Shown: piece after piece, positions 592 to 47,506 of the stretch | Position numbering within the stretch: position 1 is the first letter of the stretch | How the letters are laid out: each line of letters begins with the position of its first letter | Source: Deltaproteobacteria bacterium | GTDB lineage: Bacteria; Desulfobacterota; Syntrophia; Syntrophales; JACQWR01 | Direction of reading: 5' to 3' | DNA: 64,000 nucleotides | NCBI GenBank assembly: GCA_016209105.1 | Contig: JACQWR010000024.1 | Location: 124,001-188,000, forward strand | Program-made: the position numbers and the translations under genes | The notes under the pieces: generated by a model | What the model saw: the letters and a program-made list of their open reading frames with translations, nothing else | Told to the model about the DNA's origin: nothing | The model's database searches: none

Positions 592-651
592 GGGAAGCCT
601 CTCATCCGGGAAATTTGCCCCCGGCAGACGTGGCCGCATCCGGCAACAAGC

Positions 652-756
652 GCGCATTCCCCGCAGCTCATAACGACGGATTTCGCGAGCGAATGCTTAC
701 TGATCCTATTTCTCAAGAATAGAGATTCTCCTCCGTTTGCTCAAGGAGAGCTTCAA
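652..756 (-). repeat. Dispersed palindromic repeat, long form
   Basis: GCGCATTCCCC...GCGAGCGAATG...GATTCTCCTCCGTTTGCTCAAGGAGAGCTTCAA; reverse complement matches 47386-47506. Confidence 0.8.
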
Positions 757-4496: not shown

Positions 4497-4701
4497 TACA
4501 TACCTCCTCTGGGGCTTCTCGCCCGCAACGCGGGGTTCCCCGGTACGCGTGATTTACCTTACTCCCCTGGCACGCACCATTTCCCTTTCCCCTCGCCTCA
4601 CCACCTTTTTCCCGCAGCACACGGAACATAGCCAACAGGCGATATCTGCATAAGAAAAAGATTATATCACGTAAGCCCGATCTTGCAACATGAATTCGAT
4701 A

Positions 4702-4742
4702 GCGAGCGCATTCCCCGTAGCGTGCTCAAGGAACGCTTCAAT
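4702..4742 (-). repeat. Dispersed repeat, short form
   Basis: GCGAGCGCATTCCCCGTAGCGTGCTCAAGGAACGCTTCAAT. Confidence 0.75.
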
Positions 4743-25933: not shown

Positions 25934-25985
25934 TCGAGTCTCTCCGCCATGAACTGCGGAGAATCTCCGAATTTCTAATGAACGG
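25934..25985 (+). repeat. Dispersed repeat, stem-loop A only (divergent)
   Basis: CGAGTCTCTCCGCCATGAACTGCGGAGAATCTCCGAATTTCTAATGAACGG. Confidence 0.65.
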
Positions 25986-32220: not shown

Positions 32221-32269
32221 TTGAAGCTCTCATTGAGCAAGCTACAAGGAATGCGCTCGCTACCGAAAT
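32221..32269 (+). repeat. Dispersed repeat, short form, overlapping the 5' extension of the nitroreductase ORF
   Basis: TTGAAGCTCTCATTGAGCAAGCTACAAGGAATGCGCTCGCTACCGAAA; reverse complement matches 4702-4742. Confidence 0.75.
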
Positions 32270-34859: not shown

Positions 34860-35035
34860 TTTTCTTCCTCCCTCACGGTAATGACTTTTTTTGTACGACG
34901 CTTTTTTAGCATATTCCCGCCCCAAGTGGAAGCCCAAAGGATTTCCGGTAGTGGGTCAGTTTGAAATCTGAGAGCTTGAAGTGAGTGCGGGGCTATGATA
35001 AACTGCAAGCATGAAAAAGGTAAAACTCAAACATA

Positions 35036-35237: not shown

Positions 35238-35975
35238 CTACTTATATTTTTGATTGAGTTGTTCTAATCGAATTATTTTTCTACCGACAAATATCCATGT
35301 ATGCCGATTTTCTTGAGATAATCCACTCGGTATTGTTTCGTTTGATATTACTAAATTATAAACATCCATTAAGTCCGCTTTTTCTGAATCGGTCAGTTTA
35401 TCTCTGAAAAATACTTCAATTTCCGCATCCCACTGTACATAAGATTGCTGAGGTGTCTTCCCTATATAGAGCGGGGAACCACCCCAACATTGATTTTGTA
35501 TCGTTAAGCCCCTAATCCTAAACCATGCCAGCTTATCTGCTATTGCCTTTCTCTGTTCTGTTAATTTAAGATCGTCTGATTTGATTGCTATATTTTTATT
35601 GGTCTTGATATTAGGCGAAACATTTTTAGGTGCCGTTTTGTAGGCTGAAATTTCTTTTTGAAGATCGTCAATTTTTTTATGTGCCAATGTATGATCTCTA
35701 TACACCTCATCAACTATGAACCAACCAAAAAGTAAAACAAAAATTCCTGAAGTTAGATAAATCTTATATTTATTTGACGATAGATATTCTTTAATGCGAA
35801 TTACGAGGAGGTTCATTTGAAACCTCCCCTTTGGTAATCCGAGAAGAATATTTCCGAGCCATACGCTAACCATGAGAATAATAGCGGGAACTGTCTTGGT
35901 GAGTCCAAGTTCCGAGAACATATTACCAAAAACACGACAGAAAAAATTATATGCGTGAGTAATCCATTCTGGCAT
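35238..35975 (-). CDS. Membrane protein of unknown function, passenger of the IR-bounded element
   Basis: 245-aa ORF with two hydrophobic segments and a C-terminal soluble domain, wholly inside the inverted repeats; visibly AT-richer than flanks. Confidence 0.7.
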   Translation of the reverse strand: MPEWITHAYNFFCRVFGNMFSELGLTKTVPAIILMVSVWLGNILLGLPKGRFQMNLLVIRIKEYLSSNKYKIYLTSGIFVLLFGWFIVDEVYRDHTLAHKKIDDLQKEISAYKTAPKNVSPNIKTNKNIAIKSDDLKLTEQRKAIADKLAWFRIRGLTIQNQCWGGSPLYIGKTPQQSYVQWDAEIEVFFRDKLTDSEKADLMDVYNLVISNETIPSGLSQENRHTWIFVGRKIIRLEQLNQKYK

Positions 35976-36191
35976 GAATCATCTATATCACGATCTTGAT
36001 AAGTGGGTAAATTATTTTTCTTCATTTCAAACTGACCCCCTACCGGATTTCCCGGGGGTGCTTTTATATTGACAAATAACAGGGCCGGTCATAGGATGAG
36101 GCGCAGTGAACGACAGGGAAAAGGCGCCGCCCGGAGAAGTGGAAAGACCGCCGTCTCCGGGATAATGGTTATTGATGACTGACCGGGAGGT

Positions 36192-37310
36192 ATGGCGATG
36201 AAAATAAGGGCATTGCTACTGTTCATCATTCGCTCGCTTGTCCCGCGGTTCGTTGCGGGGAATGCGCTCGCTGTCGGATTCATGGCTGCACTCATCCTCT
36301 CCTTTGGAACACCTTCCCCGGCGGCCGAACCGACGGTGGTTACCGCCGAAGGCAAATACGTGATGGGCGATTTGGATTCCAAGAAAGACGCCCGGATGCT
36401 CGCCCTCATGGAGGCAAAACGGATAGCCCTGGAAAAGGCGGGAACCTACGTTGAAAGCTCCTCGGAGGTAAAAAACTTCAGCCTGACAAAGGACCAGATA
36501 AACACGCTGGCTACCGGAATCATGTCCGTGGACATCCTCAAGGAAGACTGGAAGATGTCCGGCGAAAACATGGTCGCCACGATCCTCATTCGCGCCCAAA
36601 TAGACGCGTCGAACCTCAAAGGCCGCATTGCCGCAATGCACGATGAAGAAAAAAACGTGGACGACTCGGGAGAAATCAGGAAACAACTGGCGGCGCTCCA
36701 GAAGGAGCTCGCTGAACTGAAGGCGGCACAGACTGCACAGAGCGGGAGGAAAACGGCGGCGCCGGAAATAAAAGAAAAACATGATGAAATCATCAAAACA
36801 ATGTCGGCGCTGGACCACCTGGAAGAAGGAAACAGGGCTCTTGACGCCGGGCAATGGGATCAGGCGCTCAACGCCTTCGGTGCAGCGCTTGCCCTGAATT
36901 CGTCCCTTTCCGGGGCTTATGCCGGACAGGCTATGATCCTTCAACAAACGGGCAAGGATGCGGCGGCAATGGAAAAAATTGATATGGCCCTGACGCTGGA
37001 ACCCGGCACGGCAAAAAACCACACCATCAAGGCGCTGATCCTGAAAAAACAGGGGAAACCCGAACAGGCCCTCCGATCGCTGAACAGGGCCATCGAACTG
37101 CGACCCCGGGTGCAGAAGCTCTATATGCTGAGGAGCAACCTTTTTGCCCAATTGAAAAGACCCAAGGCTGCGGTTGAAGACCTGAGCCGAGCCTGTAATT
37201 TAGGCAATGCGAAAGCCTGTGAGCGGATAAGAAAATTAAAACACGATAAGACTCCCGAACGTTTTCAGGGGGAAAAACCATCCCCCCGCAACCGGCAGTC
37301 GGGCCGATAA
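36192..37310 (+). CDS. TPR protein with FlgT/LPP20-like N-terminal domain
   Basis: Signal-like N-terminus, VTAEGKYVMGDLDSKKDARMLALMEAKRIALEKAGTYVES, then TPRs (GNRALDAGQWDQALNAFGAALALNSSLSGAYAG...). Confidence 0.8.
   Translation: MAMKIRALLLFIIRSLVPRFVAGNALAVGFMAALILSFGTPSPAAEPTVVTAEGKYVMGDLDSKKDARMLALMEAKRIALEKAGTYVESSSEVKNFSLTKDQINTLATGIMSVDILKEDWKMSGENMVATILIRAQIDASNLKGRIAAMHDEEKNVDDSGEIRKQLAALQKELAELKAAQTAQSGRKTAAPEIKEKHDEIIKTMSALDHLEEGNRALDAGQWDQALNAFGAALALNSSLSGAYAGQAMILQQTGKDAAAMEKIDMALTLEPGTAKNHTIKALILKKQGKPEQALRSLNRAIELRPRVQKLYMLRSNLFAQLKRPKAAVEDLSRACNLGNAKACERIRKLKHDKTPERFQGEKPSPRNRQSGR
36222..36282 (+). repeat. Dispersed repeat, box B, inside the signal-peptide coding region of the TPR gene
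   Basis: TTCATCATTCGCTCGCTT...CGCGG...CGGGGAATGCGCTCGCTG...ATTCA, aligns without gaps to 47444 onward. Confidence 0.85.
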
Positions 37311-37355: not shown

Positions 37356-38018
37356 ATGACGATGAAAATTAGTAAAACGCGCAGCGGAAAATCTTTGTTC
37401 ATGACCGTTCTGCGGACGCTTCTGCTGTTTATTCTGCTCATCATCGCTGTGTACCTATTCCGTGTTCAGCTGCTTACCGGCCTGGCATCCTTTCTTGTTG
37501 TTGATGATAATCCTCAAAAAGGCGATGTAATCTTCGTGCTGAACGGCGACGTTGACACGCGACCGTTCTTTGCCGCCAAGATTTTCCGGGAGGGACGGAC
37601 ACCCCGGATCGTGATCGCCAGATGCGAGGACACGCCCGCCGTAAAGGCCGGGATATTTCCTAACGACACGGACGCCGCCGTCGGGATCATGAAGAAGTTA
37701 GGCGTACCGGAGAACAAGATTTCCGTCCTGTCTATCCCCGGCGGGGTAACCAGCACCCGGGATGAAGCGGCGGTCCTCAGGCGTTACGTTGATGCGCACG
37801 GCATCCGGCGCGTCATCCTCGTCACGTCCGCCTTCCATACCCGCCGCGCCATGTGGATCATGCGGAAAGAGCTTGCCGGCTCTCCCGCAACGGTCCTGTC
37901 GGCCCCCGCACCGCACAATAAATTCGACACGGCCAGCTGGTGGAAGGTGGAAAGCGGCCTGATCCACTTTGCCGACGAATATATTAAATTGCTCTACTAC
38001 CGCGTAAAATACCGCTGA
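37356..38018 (+). CDS. YdcF/SanA-like DUF218 membrane protein
   Basis: GDVIFVLNGDVDTRPFFAAKIFREGRTPRIVIAR..., STRDEAAVLRRYVDAHGIRRVILVTSAFHTRRA. Confidence 0.88.
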   Translation: MTMKISKTRSGKSLFMTVLRTLLLFILLIIAVYLFRVQLLTGLASFLVVDDNPQKGDVIFVLNGDVDTRPFFAAKIFREGRTPRIVIARCEDTPAVKAGIFPNDTDAAVGIMKKLGVPENKISVLSIPGGVTSTRDEAAVLRRYVDAHGIRRVILVTSAFHTRRAMWIMRKELAGSPATVLSAPAPHNKFDTASWWKVESGLIHFADEYIKLLYYRVKYR

Positions 38019-41232: not shown

Positions 41233-41291
41233 TCTTGCGCGTAAAAGCGCGTTATTATCAAACAAAAATTCCCGGTGGGGGGCGGGAGATT

Positions 41292-42827
41292 ATGAGAAGA
41301 GTCATTCATGGTAAAGTCCCACTGAGTGTCATCTTCATCCTGGTTGTGAGCACGGCAATGACCGGCTGCGTCAGCATGATGGGCCCATCCGGTCATATGA
41401 CCGACTCGCTGAATTACGTCCGCCGGCACAAGGGCGAAGGTTTGCGGCGTCCCATGGCGGGCAGCGAAGCGGAACTTATGAACATGGCGGTGAAGAGCAT
41501 GCAGAAAGCAAACTACACCGTCATTCGGGAGCCTCATGCGGTGTTGGCCAAAGCGACGGACGTTGATCTCTCGTACGCCTTCTACTTCTACCCGTCCCAG
41601 ACGAACAATCAGACAGACGTAGAAGTTCTCGTCGTCAGCCCCTGGTTCACAGCCGAACAGATGCGGAAATTTCAGGAGCAGGCATTTACAACCAGCTTAG
41701 TTGATGTAAACAAAAAAATCCTGGAAAAAGAATATGATCCTAATGTGAGGGTCGAGGGGGCATGGCTTTCCTTGAGTGCGGCGGCATTTGAGGGTGAAAT
41801 AGAGACCGCAAGAAAATTAATCAGTAAAGGCGCGGATGTGGATTTAGCGATCTATGAGCTGAAAGACGCTGCGTCGAAACAATCGCCGTACCTGGACTAT
41901 CCGAATAACAGGAAAATATACGACAAGGCTAATCTGGGTGTGGAAATGCTCAGCAGACTTGCGACCAGGAAGGCAGAACCAAAGACGGTTACTGCGAGCG
42001 GCATTGCATCGGCTACTGTCCAGGGAAAACCCCTTATCAAATCCGATATTGACGAACTTCCAACGAGAAGAGCAAGGCTGAACAAAAACTCCTATGCAAT
42101 ACTCATTGGCATCGAGAACTACCGTCAAAAGCTGCCGGCTGCCGATTTCGCGGCCCAGGATGCGAAGCTGGTGGCTGATTACCTCACAAAAGTCGTGGGG
42201 TATCCCGAAGAAAATGTGGTGATGCTGACGAACGAACACGCGGCTTTGGGAGATTTTGTAAAGTACTTTGAGAAGTGGCTGCCGAACAATGTGGAGCAGG
42301 GCAGCACCGTCTTCATCTATTATTCCGGCCATGGCGCGCCGAATCCAAAAACATCCGATGCTTTTTTGGTGCCTTACGACGGAGACCCCTCTTTCATTGA
42401 TGAGACCGGGTACTCCTTGAAGAGAATGTACGGTGCGCTCGGGAAACTGCCCGCCAAAGAAGTTCTTGTCGCGCTCGATTCCTGTTTCTCCGGCGCCGGC
42501 GGCAGATCGGTAATCGCCAAGGGGGCGCGGCCTCTGGTCATGAACCTCCAGAATAACGCGGTTCTGTCGAAAAACATGCTGGTCATGTCCGCCTCATCCG
42601 GAGATCAAATGAGTTCAACCTATGATGAAAAAGGACATGGGTTGTTCACGTACTTCATGCTCAAGGGAATCAAGAACGAGGATGTAATGAGGCCCGATGG
42701 CTCAATCAAAATGGACGACTTGTTTGGCTACATCAAACCACAAGTGGAGCGCATCGCAAGGAAACAGTACAACAACGAGCAAACGCCACAGTTGATTGGT
42801 CACAAGACATCCCCGAAGGGAAGATGA
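41292..42827 (+). CDS. Caspase-fold (peptidase C14) lipoprotein
   Basis: Lipobox TAMTGC; YAILIGIENYRQKL, VFIYYSGHGAPNPK (His), LVALDSCFSGAGGRS (Cys). Confidence 0.9.
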   Translation: MRRVIHGKVPLSVIFILVVSTAMTGCVSMMGPSGHMTDSLNYVRRHKGEGLRRPMAGSEAELMNMAVKSMQKANYTVIREPHAVLAKATDVDLSYAFYFYPSQTNNQTDVEVLVVSPWFTAEQMRKFQEQAFTTSLVDVNKKILEKEYDPNVRVEGAWLSLSAAAFEGEIETARKLISKGADVDLAIYELKDAASKQSPYLDYPNNRKIYDKANLGVEMLSRLATRKAEPKTVTASGIASATVQGKPLIKSDIDELPTRRARLNKNSYAILIGIENYRQKLPAADFAAQDAKLVADYLTKVVGYPEENVVMLTNEHAALGDFVKYFEKWLPNNVEQGSTVFIYYSGHGAPNPKTSDAFLVPYDGDPSFIDETGYSLKRMYGALGKLPAKEVLVALDSCFSGAGGRSVIAKGARPLVMNLQNNAVLSKNMLVMSASSGDQMSSTYDEKGHGLFTYFMLKGIKNEDVMRPDGSIKMDDLFGYIKPQVERIARKQYNNEQTPQLIGHKTSPKGR

Positions 42828-42847: not shown

Positions 42848-42970
42848 CGAAGACTCTCCGCAGCTTGCGGCGGAGAGTCTTCGATTTTCGGGGAACAAGA
42901 GAGTTTAAGCCTTCGCCCGCTTACCCCTTGAGACAGGCTACGGGGAATGCGCTCGCTGATGAATTCAGGA
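42848..42970 (+). repeat. Dispersed repeat, long form, between the convergent caspase genes
   Basis: Perfect 14-bp stem CGAAGACTCTCCGC/GCGGAGAGTCTTCG (42848-42861/42870-42883) followed by ...CTACGGGGAATGCGCTCGCTGATGAATTCAGG. Confidence 0.85.
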
Positions 42971-43000: not shown

Positions 43001-45292
43001 TTAACGAGTCCTTGCCACAGGCATTTTCGTTCTCTCTTCGGCCAGCGCCGCCGACTGAAGCAGAACGGGAGTCTGATCACGGTTAAACTCCAGAGAGGCC
43101 TTCTCCGATACCCTCGCACTGACATACTGGTAGAGCGATCCCAGATTGACGACGCCTTGTTTTTCAATATCCGCATCCCCTCTGATCCCCCGCAGAAGAT
43201 AATACGTAAATAACCCGTGATGAACTTTGTCGTAATCGGAACTGATCTGGCTGCCCGTTGAAGCAGCGACAACGGTCACTTTTCCCACCGCCAGAGATTG
43301 ACTCTCAAGCGACATCACGAGCGGCCGTGCCCCTTCGCTGGTTACACTCCTGCCTTTCGCCCCTGAAAAACAGCTATCGAGCATGACAACCGTGTCCCTG
43401 TTCGGGAGCTTGTTGAGTGCCGCATACATGCGGCTCAATGGATAGAGCTTGGTCGGAAAATCCGGATTCCCGTCAAAGGGGACAATGTAGGCATCCTTGC
43501 CCTGTGGATCGGGCGCGCCATGACCGGCATAATACACAAACACCTGGGAATTCTTCGTGACCCTTCGCGGCAGCCAATCCTCCAGGTATGCCTCCAGATC
43601 ACTCTTGGTGACCTTGTCATTCGTCAACACCATGATATTGGATCGGGGAATTCCGGATAAATGCTCCAGATATTTCGCCATGACTTCCGCATCCCGGGAC
43701 GCGTATTTCACTTCGGGAATGATTTTTTCCCGATAGGTGCTGATGCCGAACAGCAGGGCAAAATCCTCCTTTTTCTCAAAACCTTTTATTCTTGCGGGAA
43801 TATCATCCACATCAACCTCGGAAACCACTTCAATGACTTCCTTTACCTCGACCGATCTCATAGCCACCTGAAAGACCCTGCGCTCCGGGGGTGAAAAACC
43901 TTTGCCTTCCTTGATTTCAATACGAAGCGTGGCCGACTCCGATGCAATCCGTTCCGGCAGGATGCCTTTAAAAACCGCCACCTTTTTTTCTCCCGGTTGC
44001 AGGTCGCCGATTGACTTGGAAGCGCCAAGGGCATGGATAAGGGTAGGATGTCCCGACAAAACAACCTGTACATTTTGGGCGAGTCCTTCGCCTTTGTTTT
44101 CAATTTCTGTTTGAAGCGATATTTCCTCGCCGCCATCCAAGACGCGATTGTTATTCTGATCCTTCAGCGAGGTGGAAAAAGTCAGTTTCGGGACGGCGGA
44201 TACTACCTCTACTTTTTCCCTGACGATCCCGGGTTTGACGGCGATTTTTAAAACCTTTGCCTCGGCGGGAGAGAATCCCCGCTTTTCCTGAACATTTATT
44301 CGGAGGTTCCCGGCATCCGCCGCAATCAGCAAGGGCAGCGTGGCTTTAAATTCGGCTGTTTTCTTTTCTCCCGCCTTGATATCTCCGAGGGTGCGCCTCT
44401 CTCCCAGATGGCTGATGATGTCATCATGACCGGAAAGGAGAACCTGGACATCCTTTGCCGGCCCTTCCCCGCGATTTTCCACCTCCACCCGCAGAGAGAT
44501 TTCCTTGCCGCCCTCAAGGACGCCCCCGCCCGAGCTGTCGTGAAAAACTGCATTGAACGCCAAGGATGGCGGAAGGGCGGCAATCGCCTTCTCCTCCTTT
44601 TTCTCCGGGACAGGAGCCGCGGCGACCGCCGTAGTTTCAATATCATCAATCACTGGACGGCCCATGGTAACTTGGATGTACCCGCTGCCACCGCCGATAG
44701 ATAGGGGACCAGCCCCACGCATTGCAAAAGATCCGGCAACGATCATCCGATCAAAATCAATATAGTCTATAAGCCATTCACTCTGCCAAATACCCGTCCC
44801 GACCACCATCCATGAGGCCAAATGGGTACTCTCAAACCTGATCTCCCTGGCTGACTTTATCGCCAATATCCCCTCCGCCGGAACGACTAAGACGGGAGTG
44901 AGATTCCAGGTAAAGCGCATGGAGACATTAAACTTGATTTCCATATTTTCGCGGTCTATGTAAACGATATCGTTAAATTTTATGGATTTAATCGTTGAAA
45001 CTCCGGGCATAGGTCCGCCCTGGGTGTAAAACGAAAACCCCTGGTCCGAGGAATCTTTTCCGGTGATATCCAATACCTTGCCCTGCGGGGTCTCATATAT
45101 CGGGAAGCTCTTACCCAGATTCCTCTTGATGAGGTTGTACATCTTTACCAGAATTTCCTGTTTCGGACTTTCCTCTTTGATGGTATCGCACGTGTTATTT
45201 TCGCAATACTTGACGACGTTAGGCATGACCGCCGAGCATCCCGCCAGCGACCATAGGGAGAAGAACGCTATAATTAAAAATCCCTTTTTCAT
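43001..45292 (-). CDS. Caspase-fold (peptidase C14) lipoprotein with two CARDB-like repeats
   Basis: Lipobox SLAGC; two LDGGEEISLQTEIENKGEGLAQNVQV-type repeats; VFVYYAGHGAPDPQ and VMLDSCFSGAKGRS catalytic motifs. Confidence 0.9.
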   Translation of the reverse strand: MKKGFLIIAFFSLWSLAGCSAVMPNVVKYCENNTCDTIKEESPKQEILVKMYNLIKRNLGKSFPIYETPQGKVLDITGKDSSDQGFSFYTQGGPMPGVSTIKSIKFNDIVYIDRENMEIKFNVSMRFTWNLTPVLVVPAEGILAIKSAREIRFESTHLASWMVVGTGIWQSEWLIDYIDFDRMIVAGSFAMRGAGPLSIGGGSGYIQVTMGRPVIDDIETTAVAAAPVPEKKEEKAIAALPPSLAFNAVFHDSSGGGVLEGGKEISLRVEVENRGEGPAKDVQVLLSGHDDIISHLGERRTLGDIKAGEKKTAEFKATLPLLIAADAGNLRINVQEKRGFSPAEAKVLKIAVKPGIVREKVEVVSAVPKLTFSTSLKDQNNNRVLDGGEEISLQTEIENKGEGLAQNVQVVLSGHPTLIHALGASKSIGDLQPGEKKVAVFKGILPERIASESATLRIEIKEGKGFSPPERRVFQVAMRSVEVKEVIEVVSEVDVDDIPARIKGFEKKEDFALLFGISTYREKIIPEVKYASRDAEVMAKYLEHLSGIPRSNIMVLTNDKVTKSDLEAYLEDWLPRRVTKNSQVFVYYAGHGAPDPQGKDAYIVPFDGNPDFPTKLYPLSRMYAALNKLPNRDTVVMLDSCFSGAKGRSVTSEGARPLVMSLESQSLAVGKVTVVAASTGSQISSDYDKVHHGLFTYYLLRGIRGDADIEKQGVVNLGSLYQYVSARVSEKASLEFNRDQTPVLLQSAALAEERTKMPVARTR

Positions 45293-45334
45293 ATTTTCTC
45301 CGGTAGAAGATTCCTCATGAGCCAAGGGTGATGT

Positions 45335-45386
45335 GAATTCAACAGCGAGCGCATTCCCCTTGAGCTTGGCTTAAAGAGAGTTTCAC
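45335..45386 (-). repeat. Dispersed repeat, short form
   Basis: GAATTCAACAGCGAGCGCATTCCCCTTGAGCTTGGCTTAAAGAGAGTTTCAC. Confidence 0.65.
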
Positions 45387-47385: not shown

Positions 47386-47506
47386 ATTGAAGCTCTCCTT
47401 GAGCAAGCGGCGGAGAATCTTCGATTCCCAAGGAACATCATCTTTCATCATTCGCTCGCTTACTTCGCGGCAAGCCACGGGGAATGCGCTCGCTGCCGAA
47501 TTCAGC
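47386..47506 (+). repeat. Dispersed repeat, long form (best reference copy)
   Basis: TTGAAGCTCTCCTTGAGCAAGCGGCGGAGAATCTTCGATTCCCAAGGAACATCATCTTTCATCATTCGCTCGCTTACTTCGCGGCAAGCCACGGGGAATGCGCTCGCTGCCGAATTCAGCG. Confidence 0.85.

Follow-up and report, generated by a model that had tools for sequence, protein, structure and literature searches.

Results

The TPR gene and its leader

The window, by which we mean the whole analysed stretch of 64,000 nucleotides, carries a gene for a predicted exported protein with TPR repeats, followed on its 3' side by a DUF218 gene (Table 1). The TPR protein also has an FlgT_N-like N-terminal domain at residues 63–121, a sub-threshold match. Within its leader lies the segment FIIRSLVPRFVAGNALAVGF, 20 residues encoded by a 60-nt unit, and the leader peptide that an earlier sequence-only reading had assigned to this open reading frame (36192–37310) is correct. 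The same reading had aligned positions 36222–36282 without gaps to a non-coding stretch at 47444–47504, including two identical 18-nt blocks; the alignment was reproduced over 61 nt with 80% identity and with the blocks TTCATCATTCGCTCGCTT and CGGGGAATGCGCTCGCTG. TTCAT occurs at both ends of the copy in the TPR gene, yet TTCA/ATTCA is also part of the family consensus, and these ends are thus indistinguishable from a target-site duplication, which together with terminal inverted repeats would mark a MITE. Just 5' of the gene, a separate pair of 29-nt inverted repeats with 90% complementarity (34939–34967 and 36024–36052) surrounds a minus-strand gene (35238–35975).

The TPR gene is preceded by GGAGG at 36186–36190, and the second ATG at 36198, which sits 7 nt downstream and is better spaced than that at 36192, is probably the translation start. 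Either choice gives the same leader except for the residues 'MA'. Translation is unlikely to begin beyond the repeat, given that the closest orthologue conserves the ribosome-binding site and start region, GGAGGTATGGCGATGAAAA.

Table 1. Features of the TPR locus and copies of the hairpin repeat in the window.
Feature	Position	Strand	Basis or remark
TPR protein gene (372 aa), predicted exported	36192–37310	+	TPR repeats; dN 0.21, dS 0.89–0.98 against L009
Ribosome-binding site and start GGAGGTATGGCGATGAAAA	36186–36204	+	identical in orthologue L009
60-nt hairpin repeat copy, 20 in-frame codons FIIRSLVPRFVAGNALAVGF	36222–36281	+	family match reaches 36282; 20 codons more than L009
Original second half of signal peptide (MAALILSFGTPSPAAE)	36282–36329	+	aligns with L009 VITLAVLCGTLSPAAE; cleavage region outside repeat
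DUF218 gene, next 3' of TPR gene	37356–38018	+	same-gene remnant follows orthologue in L009 (synteny)
Non-coding composite copy	47387–47504	+	5' hairpin half 47387–47442, then 60-nt unit 47445–47504
Second intergenic composite copy	42853–42967	+	family search
Diverged intergenic copy	638–699	-	family search
Partial intergenic copy	4691–4726	-	family search
Partial copy just 5' of probable true start of minus-strand nitroreductase gene	32237–32267	+	family search
Partial intergenic copy	45334–45367	-	family search

Orthologues without the segment

The closest orthologue, L009 from the Syntrophales MAG E10_metabat.bin.36 (the same sequence was found as L138), is 69% identical over 343 aligned codons. 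After the shared GGAGGTATGGCGATGAAAA, L009 continues as MAMKTGMILLVITLAVLCGTLSPAAEPTVV, where the TPR gene encodes MAMKIRALLL-[FIIRSLVPRFVAGNALAVGF]-MAALILSFGTPSPAAEPTVV, and L009 is shorter by exactly 20 codons. Its leader, MAMKTGMILLVITLAVLCGTLSPAAEP, is complete without the repeat segment. The other seven distinct orthologues, 42–60% identical, have ordinary short leaders, and the comparison of orthologues that had been proposed as a check thereby found the segment absent from all eight. Four of the eight searched genomes that carry a TPR orthologue contain the repeat family, and no orthologue from a family-free genome shares the N-terminal peptide of the TPR protein. Among the relatives searched, no genome was close enough to share the insertion. 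Between the TPR gene and L009, dN/dS is about 0.21–0.24, indicating that the gene is under purifying selection, and the ribosome-binding site and start of the predicted product are conserved as well.

A family of hairpin repeats

The host genome is a draft of 2.71 Mb in 29 contigs, 92% complete. The segment had been taken for a dispersed repeat, and the genome bears this out: the 14-nt core GGAATGCGCTCGCT with at most one mismatch occurs at no fewer than 113 sites, compared with two for the reversed-pattern control. In the window, the core GGAATGCGCTCGCTG with up to two mismatches was found seven times against 0.2 expected, a count reached in none of 100 shuffles. The TPR copy used as a query matched 40 other places in the genome at E<=1e-4, with best E-values to 2e-14. 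We built a family profile from 82 stretches, one being the window and 81 being taken from around copies, with about a dozen core sites falling outside the stretches read; its consensus is TTCATCATTCGCTCGCTTACCCCGCGGCAAGCCGCGGGGAATGCGCTCGCTGCCGAATTCA. In the central hairpin, inner stem pairs have changed in a compensatory way, at the paired columns 25–34 (four copies), 26–33 (seven copies) and 27–32 (two copies). Forty-six of the 68 full-length copies directly follow a second hairpin half with a consensus near TTGAAGCTCTCCGCAGCAAGCTGCGGAGAATCTTCGATTCTTAAGGAACATTATCGT, forming a composite of about 120 nt. The remaining 22, the TPR copy included, have no detectable 5' half; by eye, some of them retain remnants of it, and L115, L137, L074 and the TPR copy appear to be genuinely solo. 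This 5' half (GAAGCTCTCCGC...GCGGAGAATCTTC), with 75 matches in the fetched stretches, also exists without the 60-nt unit, as at 2818–2873 and 25936–25983 in the window. The composite copy at 42853–42967 separates two convergent caspase-domain (Peptidase_C14) genes at 41235–42827 (plus strand) and 43001–45325 (minus strand).

The family was found in 11 of the 60 genomes searched, the host genome counted, and the others are Syntrophales relatives. An Rfam gathering search of the window gave no match, and a literature search of open-access papers found no earlier description of such a repeat in Syntrophales or Syntrophus. A simple gene finder based on hexamers placed 100 of the 109 copies with a length of 35 nt or more between genes and nine over predicted genes, although 83% of the sequence read is coding (binomial probability about 1e-64, an approximation since the stretches were chosen around copies). 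The family is probably a non-autonomous mobile element.

Copies that touch other genes

The TPR gene holds the sole clean internal in-frame insertion among the 109 copies read. Four gene-overlapping copies (L089, L106, L115 and L129) are placed 5' of the probable true start, and a partial copy lies at a PyrK-like N-terminus (L078). L110 was considered as an in-gene copy and set aside, its host being most likely a spurious, antisense-type open reading frame. A reverse copy gives an NrnA-like phosphoesterase its last residues, about 10 (EFGSERISRG), and its stop codon (L135:1802–1860, C25:40639). The signal-peptide region of an MBL-fold (Lactamase_B_2) protein holds a second full copy, which adjoins another hairpin (L103:1791–1849, C12:55104–55160). 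There, MKIKLLT... is followed by the other hairpin and then by the repeat, and IIFLALATLLPIPAHG continues in a different frame; a reading from MKIKLLT, apparently the original start, ends at a stop, and the arrangement looks frame-breaking.

Of 42 copies in the relatives G016 and G052, 35 fall between genes; the others include no internal insertion with conserved sequence on both flanks. One of these others, in G016, overlaps what is predicted to be the N-terminus (MVPIRSLIPRQAAGNTLAAGFK...) of a CCA-adding/poly(A) polymerase-type protein whose true start is uncertain (L176:1463–1530, C24), and another in this set overlaps the C-terminus of a small protein (L161). An ATG (GGGGAATG) is present inside the element, as in L167:1557–1577 of G016 and in the consensus GGGGAATGCGC, and gene finders can call it a start (MRSLPNS...). 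This internal ATG is a likely source of wrong annotated N-termini.

Hydropathy of the coding copy

Among the copies of 60 nt, 43 of 45 contain no stop in frame 0. The copy in the TPR gene has nine differences from the consensus, and neither a stop nor a frameshift nor a synonymous codon change is among them. Five codons differ, T to V, Q to F, A to V, A to V and E to G, all of them non-synonymous and each raising hydropathy, and the copy takes the top hydropathy rank among the 67 full-length copies translated in that frame. In post hoc tests, its hydropathy was reached in 0.05% of draws from the family column frequencies, with columns treated as independent, and in 0.4% of sets of nine random substitutions; 0.02% of all such sets gave exclusively non-synonymous, more hydrophobic codons. 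With the insert, the leader grows from about 24 residues to 44 and gains two arginines (R14 and R19) in its N-terminal part of about 20 residues. The uncharged run up to the cleavage region comprises 26 residues with the TPR copy, 16 with the consensus unit and 19 with the unit deleted; with the 20 codons removed in silico, the leader reads MAMKIRALLLMAALILSFGTPSPAAEP and looks normal.

The hydrophobicity of the copy suggests either tuning or the insertion of a permissive variant. Some of the hydrophobic variants are shared with non-coding copies, namely GTCGGATTCAT in a partial copy (C10:171582–171611) and TTCGTT in L106:1809, and this occurrence means that the variants need not have arisen in place; the copy could have been permissive from the time it was inserted. 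Loss of the hairpin was considered as a signal of selection and discarded, the folding energy of the TPR copy being unremarkable (rank 24 from the weakest of 67).

Discussion

We consider it very probable that a hairpin unit was inserted in frame into the TPR gene, within a signal peptide that was already functional, and thereby lengthened that peptide. The orthologue comparison has a simple reading, an insertion in the TPR lineage, given that the additional stretch belongs to a dispersed repeat family. A normally intergenic unit of 60 nt would have entered between the N-terminal residues of the leader and the remaining hydrophobic core, and the reading frame would have survived because of the length of the unit and because hardly any copy has a stop in the sense frame. 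Export was probably kept, judging from the predicted leader, since the start site precedes the insert, since the remaining hydrophobic stretch and the cleavage region follow it, and since the TPR copy is devoid of the polar or charged residues (Q, T and E) that the consensus encodes. The mature protein should be unchanged, as the segment would be removed along with the leader. The hydrophobic changes themselves might have arisen after the insertion or have been brought in by the inserted copy.

The sequence-only reading had proposed that a dispersed repeat was captured as signal-peptide coding sequence, which holds, and that it supplied or replaced an export signal, which is not supported. That the protein previously had no such signal is very improbable, even though the segment now contributes roughly half of the leader's residues and some of its hydrophobic core and a Yersinia element partly forms the predicted signal peptide of YPO1552 (PMC2759123), because the segment-free orthologues L009/L138 have complete leaders and the window gene retains both halves of its original one. 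A somewhat less remote, though still unlikely, reading is that the insertion is recent and harmful, with an impaired leader and a gene heading for loss. A leader of 44 residues is indeed long and has arginine and proline mid-way, and the copy at C12:55104 puts the apparent original start of the MBL-fold protein out of frame; the TPR open reading frame, however, is intact, and a damaged leader would sit poorly with nine differences that bring neither stop, frameshift nor synonymous change and with five changed codons that all raise hydropathy. Repeats can produce false joins in draft assemblies, but a false join at this repeat is all but excluded because both flanks of the insert match one orthologous gene and the DUF218 remnant follows in L009. 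Chance similarity is opposed by the E-values against other copies, and we attach next to no weight to either of these two explanations.

The lengthened leader is a well-resolved bacterial case of a non-coding mobile repeat turned into protein sequence, and the orthologues still display the ancestral state. Signal peptides are cleaved off and tolerate sequence change, and the case suggests them as places where insertions of this kind persist. It also brings to light a hairpin repeat family that spans several families of Syntrophales. One might go further and regard signal-peptide codons as a general landing place where the Syntrophales repeat becomes coding and selection then raises hydrophobicity, with the TPR gene and C12:55104 as two instances. 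The repeat could be tolerable there because of its 60-nt length and its hydrophobic, stop-free sense frame, and mobile hairpins would then have a repeatable route to remodel leaders; we regard this wider proposal as speculative and rather improbable.

Comparison with known repeat systems

REP sequences and REPINs, described as short, high-copy and mostly intergenic palindromes mobilised by TnpA-REP/RAYT in the accounts of PMC3116915 and PMC8266576, resemble the Syntrophales family in the first respects, and GTAG/CGTC tags have been described (PMC3733652). The family differs in that the host genome has no Y1 transposase (Y1_Tnp) and none lies beside copies in relatives: the Y1 transposases of G016 and G052 are not flanked by family copies, and none of the seven Y1 loci in relatives has a full or near-full copy. 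RAYT was therefore rejected as the mobiliser.

The TPR case has the hallmarks of an in-frame insertion of the RPE or RU-2 type, namely a dispersed hairpin family and a segment that is absent from orthologues with the frame kept. For YPAL/RU-2 in Yersinia, the element partly forms the predicted signal peptide of YPO1552 (Delihas 2007, PMC2759123; reviewed in PMC2229807), where it accounts for the start and all of residues 1–30 in a putative new exported protein (PMC2759123). Compared by description, the Syntrophales element instead lies within a leader that a conserved protein already had, as the orthologues show. RPEs are mainly intergenic palindromic repeats, some of which lie in frame inside pre-existing open reading frames without destroying them (Ogata et al. 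2000, as summarised in PMC2229807 and PMC3767692), and the TPR insertion shares the palindromic structure, the mainly intergenic distribution and the in-frame insertion with the open reading frame kept. According to these summaries, RPEs measure 105–146 bp and are often found in open reading frames, whereas the Syntrophales unit measures 60 nt (about 120 as a composite) with one clean internal case among 109 copies. Membership in the RPE family proper (RPE-1 to RPE-7, with Rickettsia or Wolbachia as host) was rejected by description, given the unit of 60 nt and a host placed in Syntrophales by its orthologue-bearing relatives. That palindromic elements insert in frame into open reading frames is established for the Rickettsia RPEs, as these summaries present them (PMC2229807, PMC3767692), and the present case adds a Syntrophales family, orthologues that preserve the ancestral state and a coding copy with shifted hydropathy.
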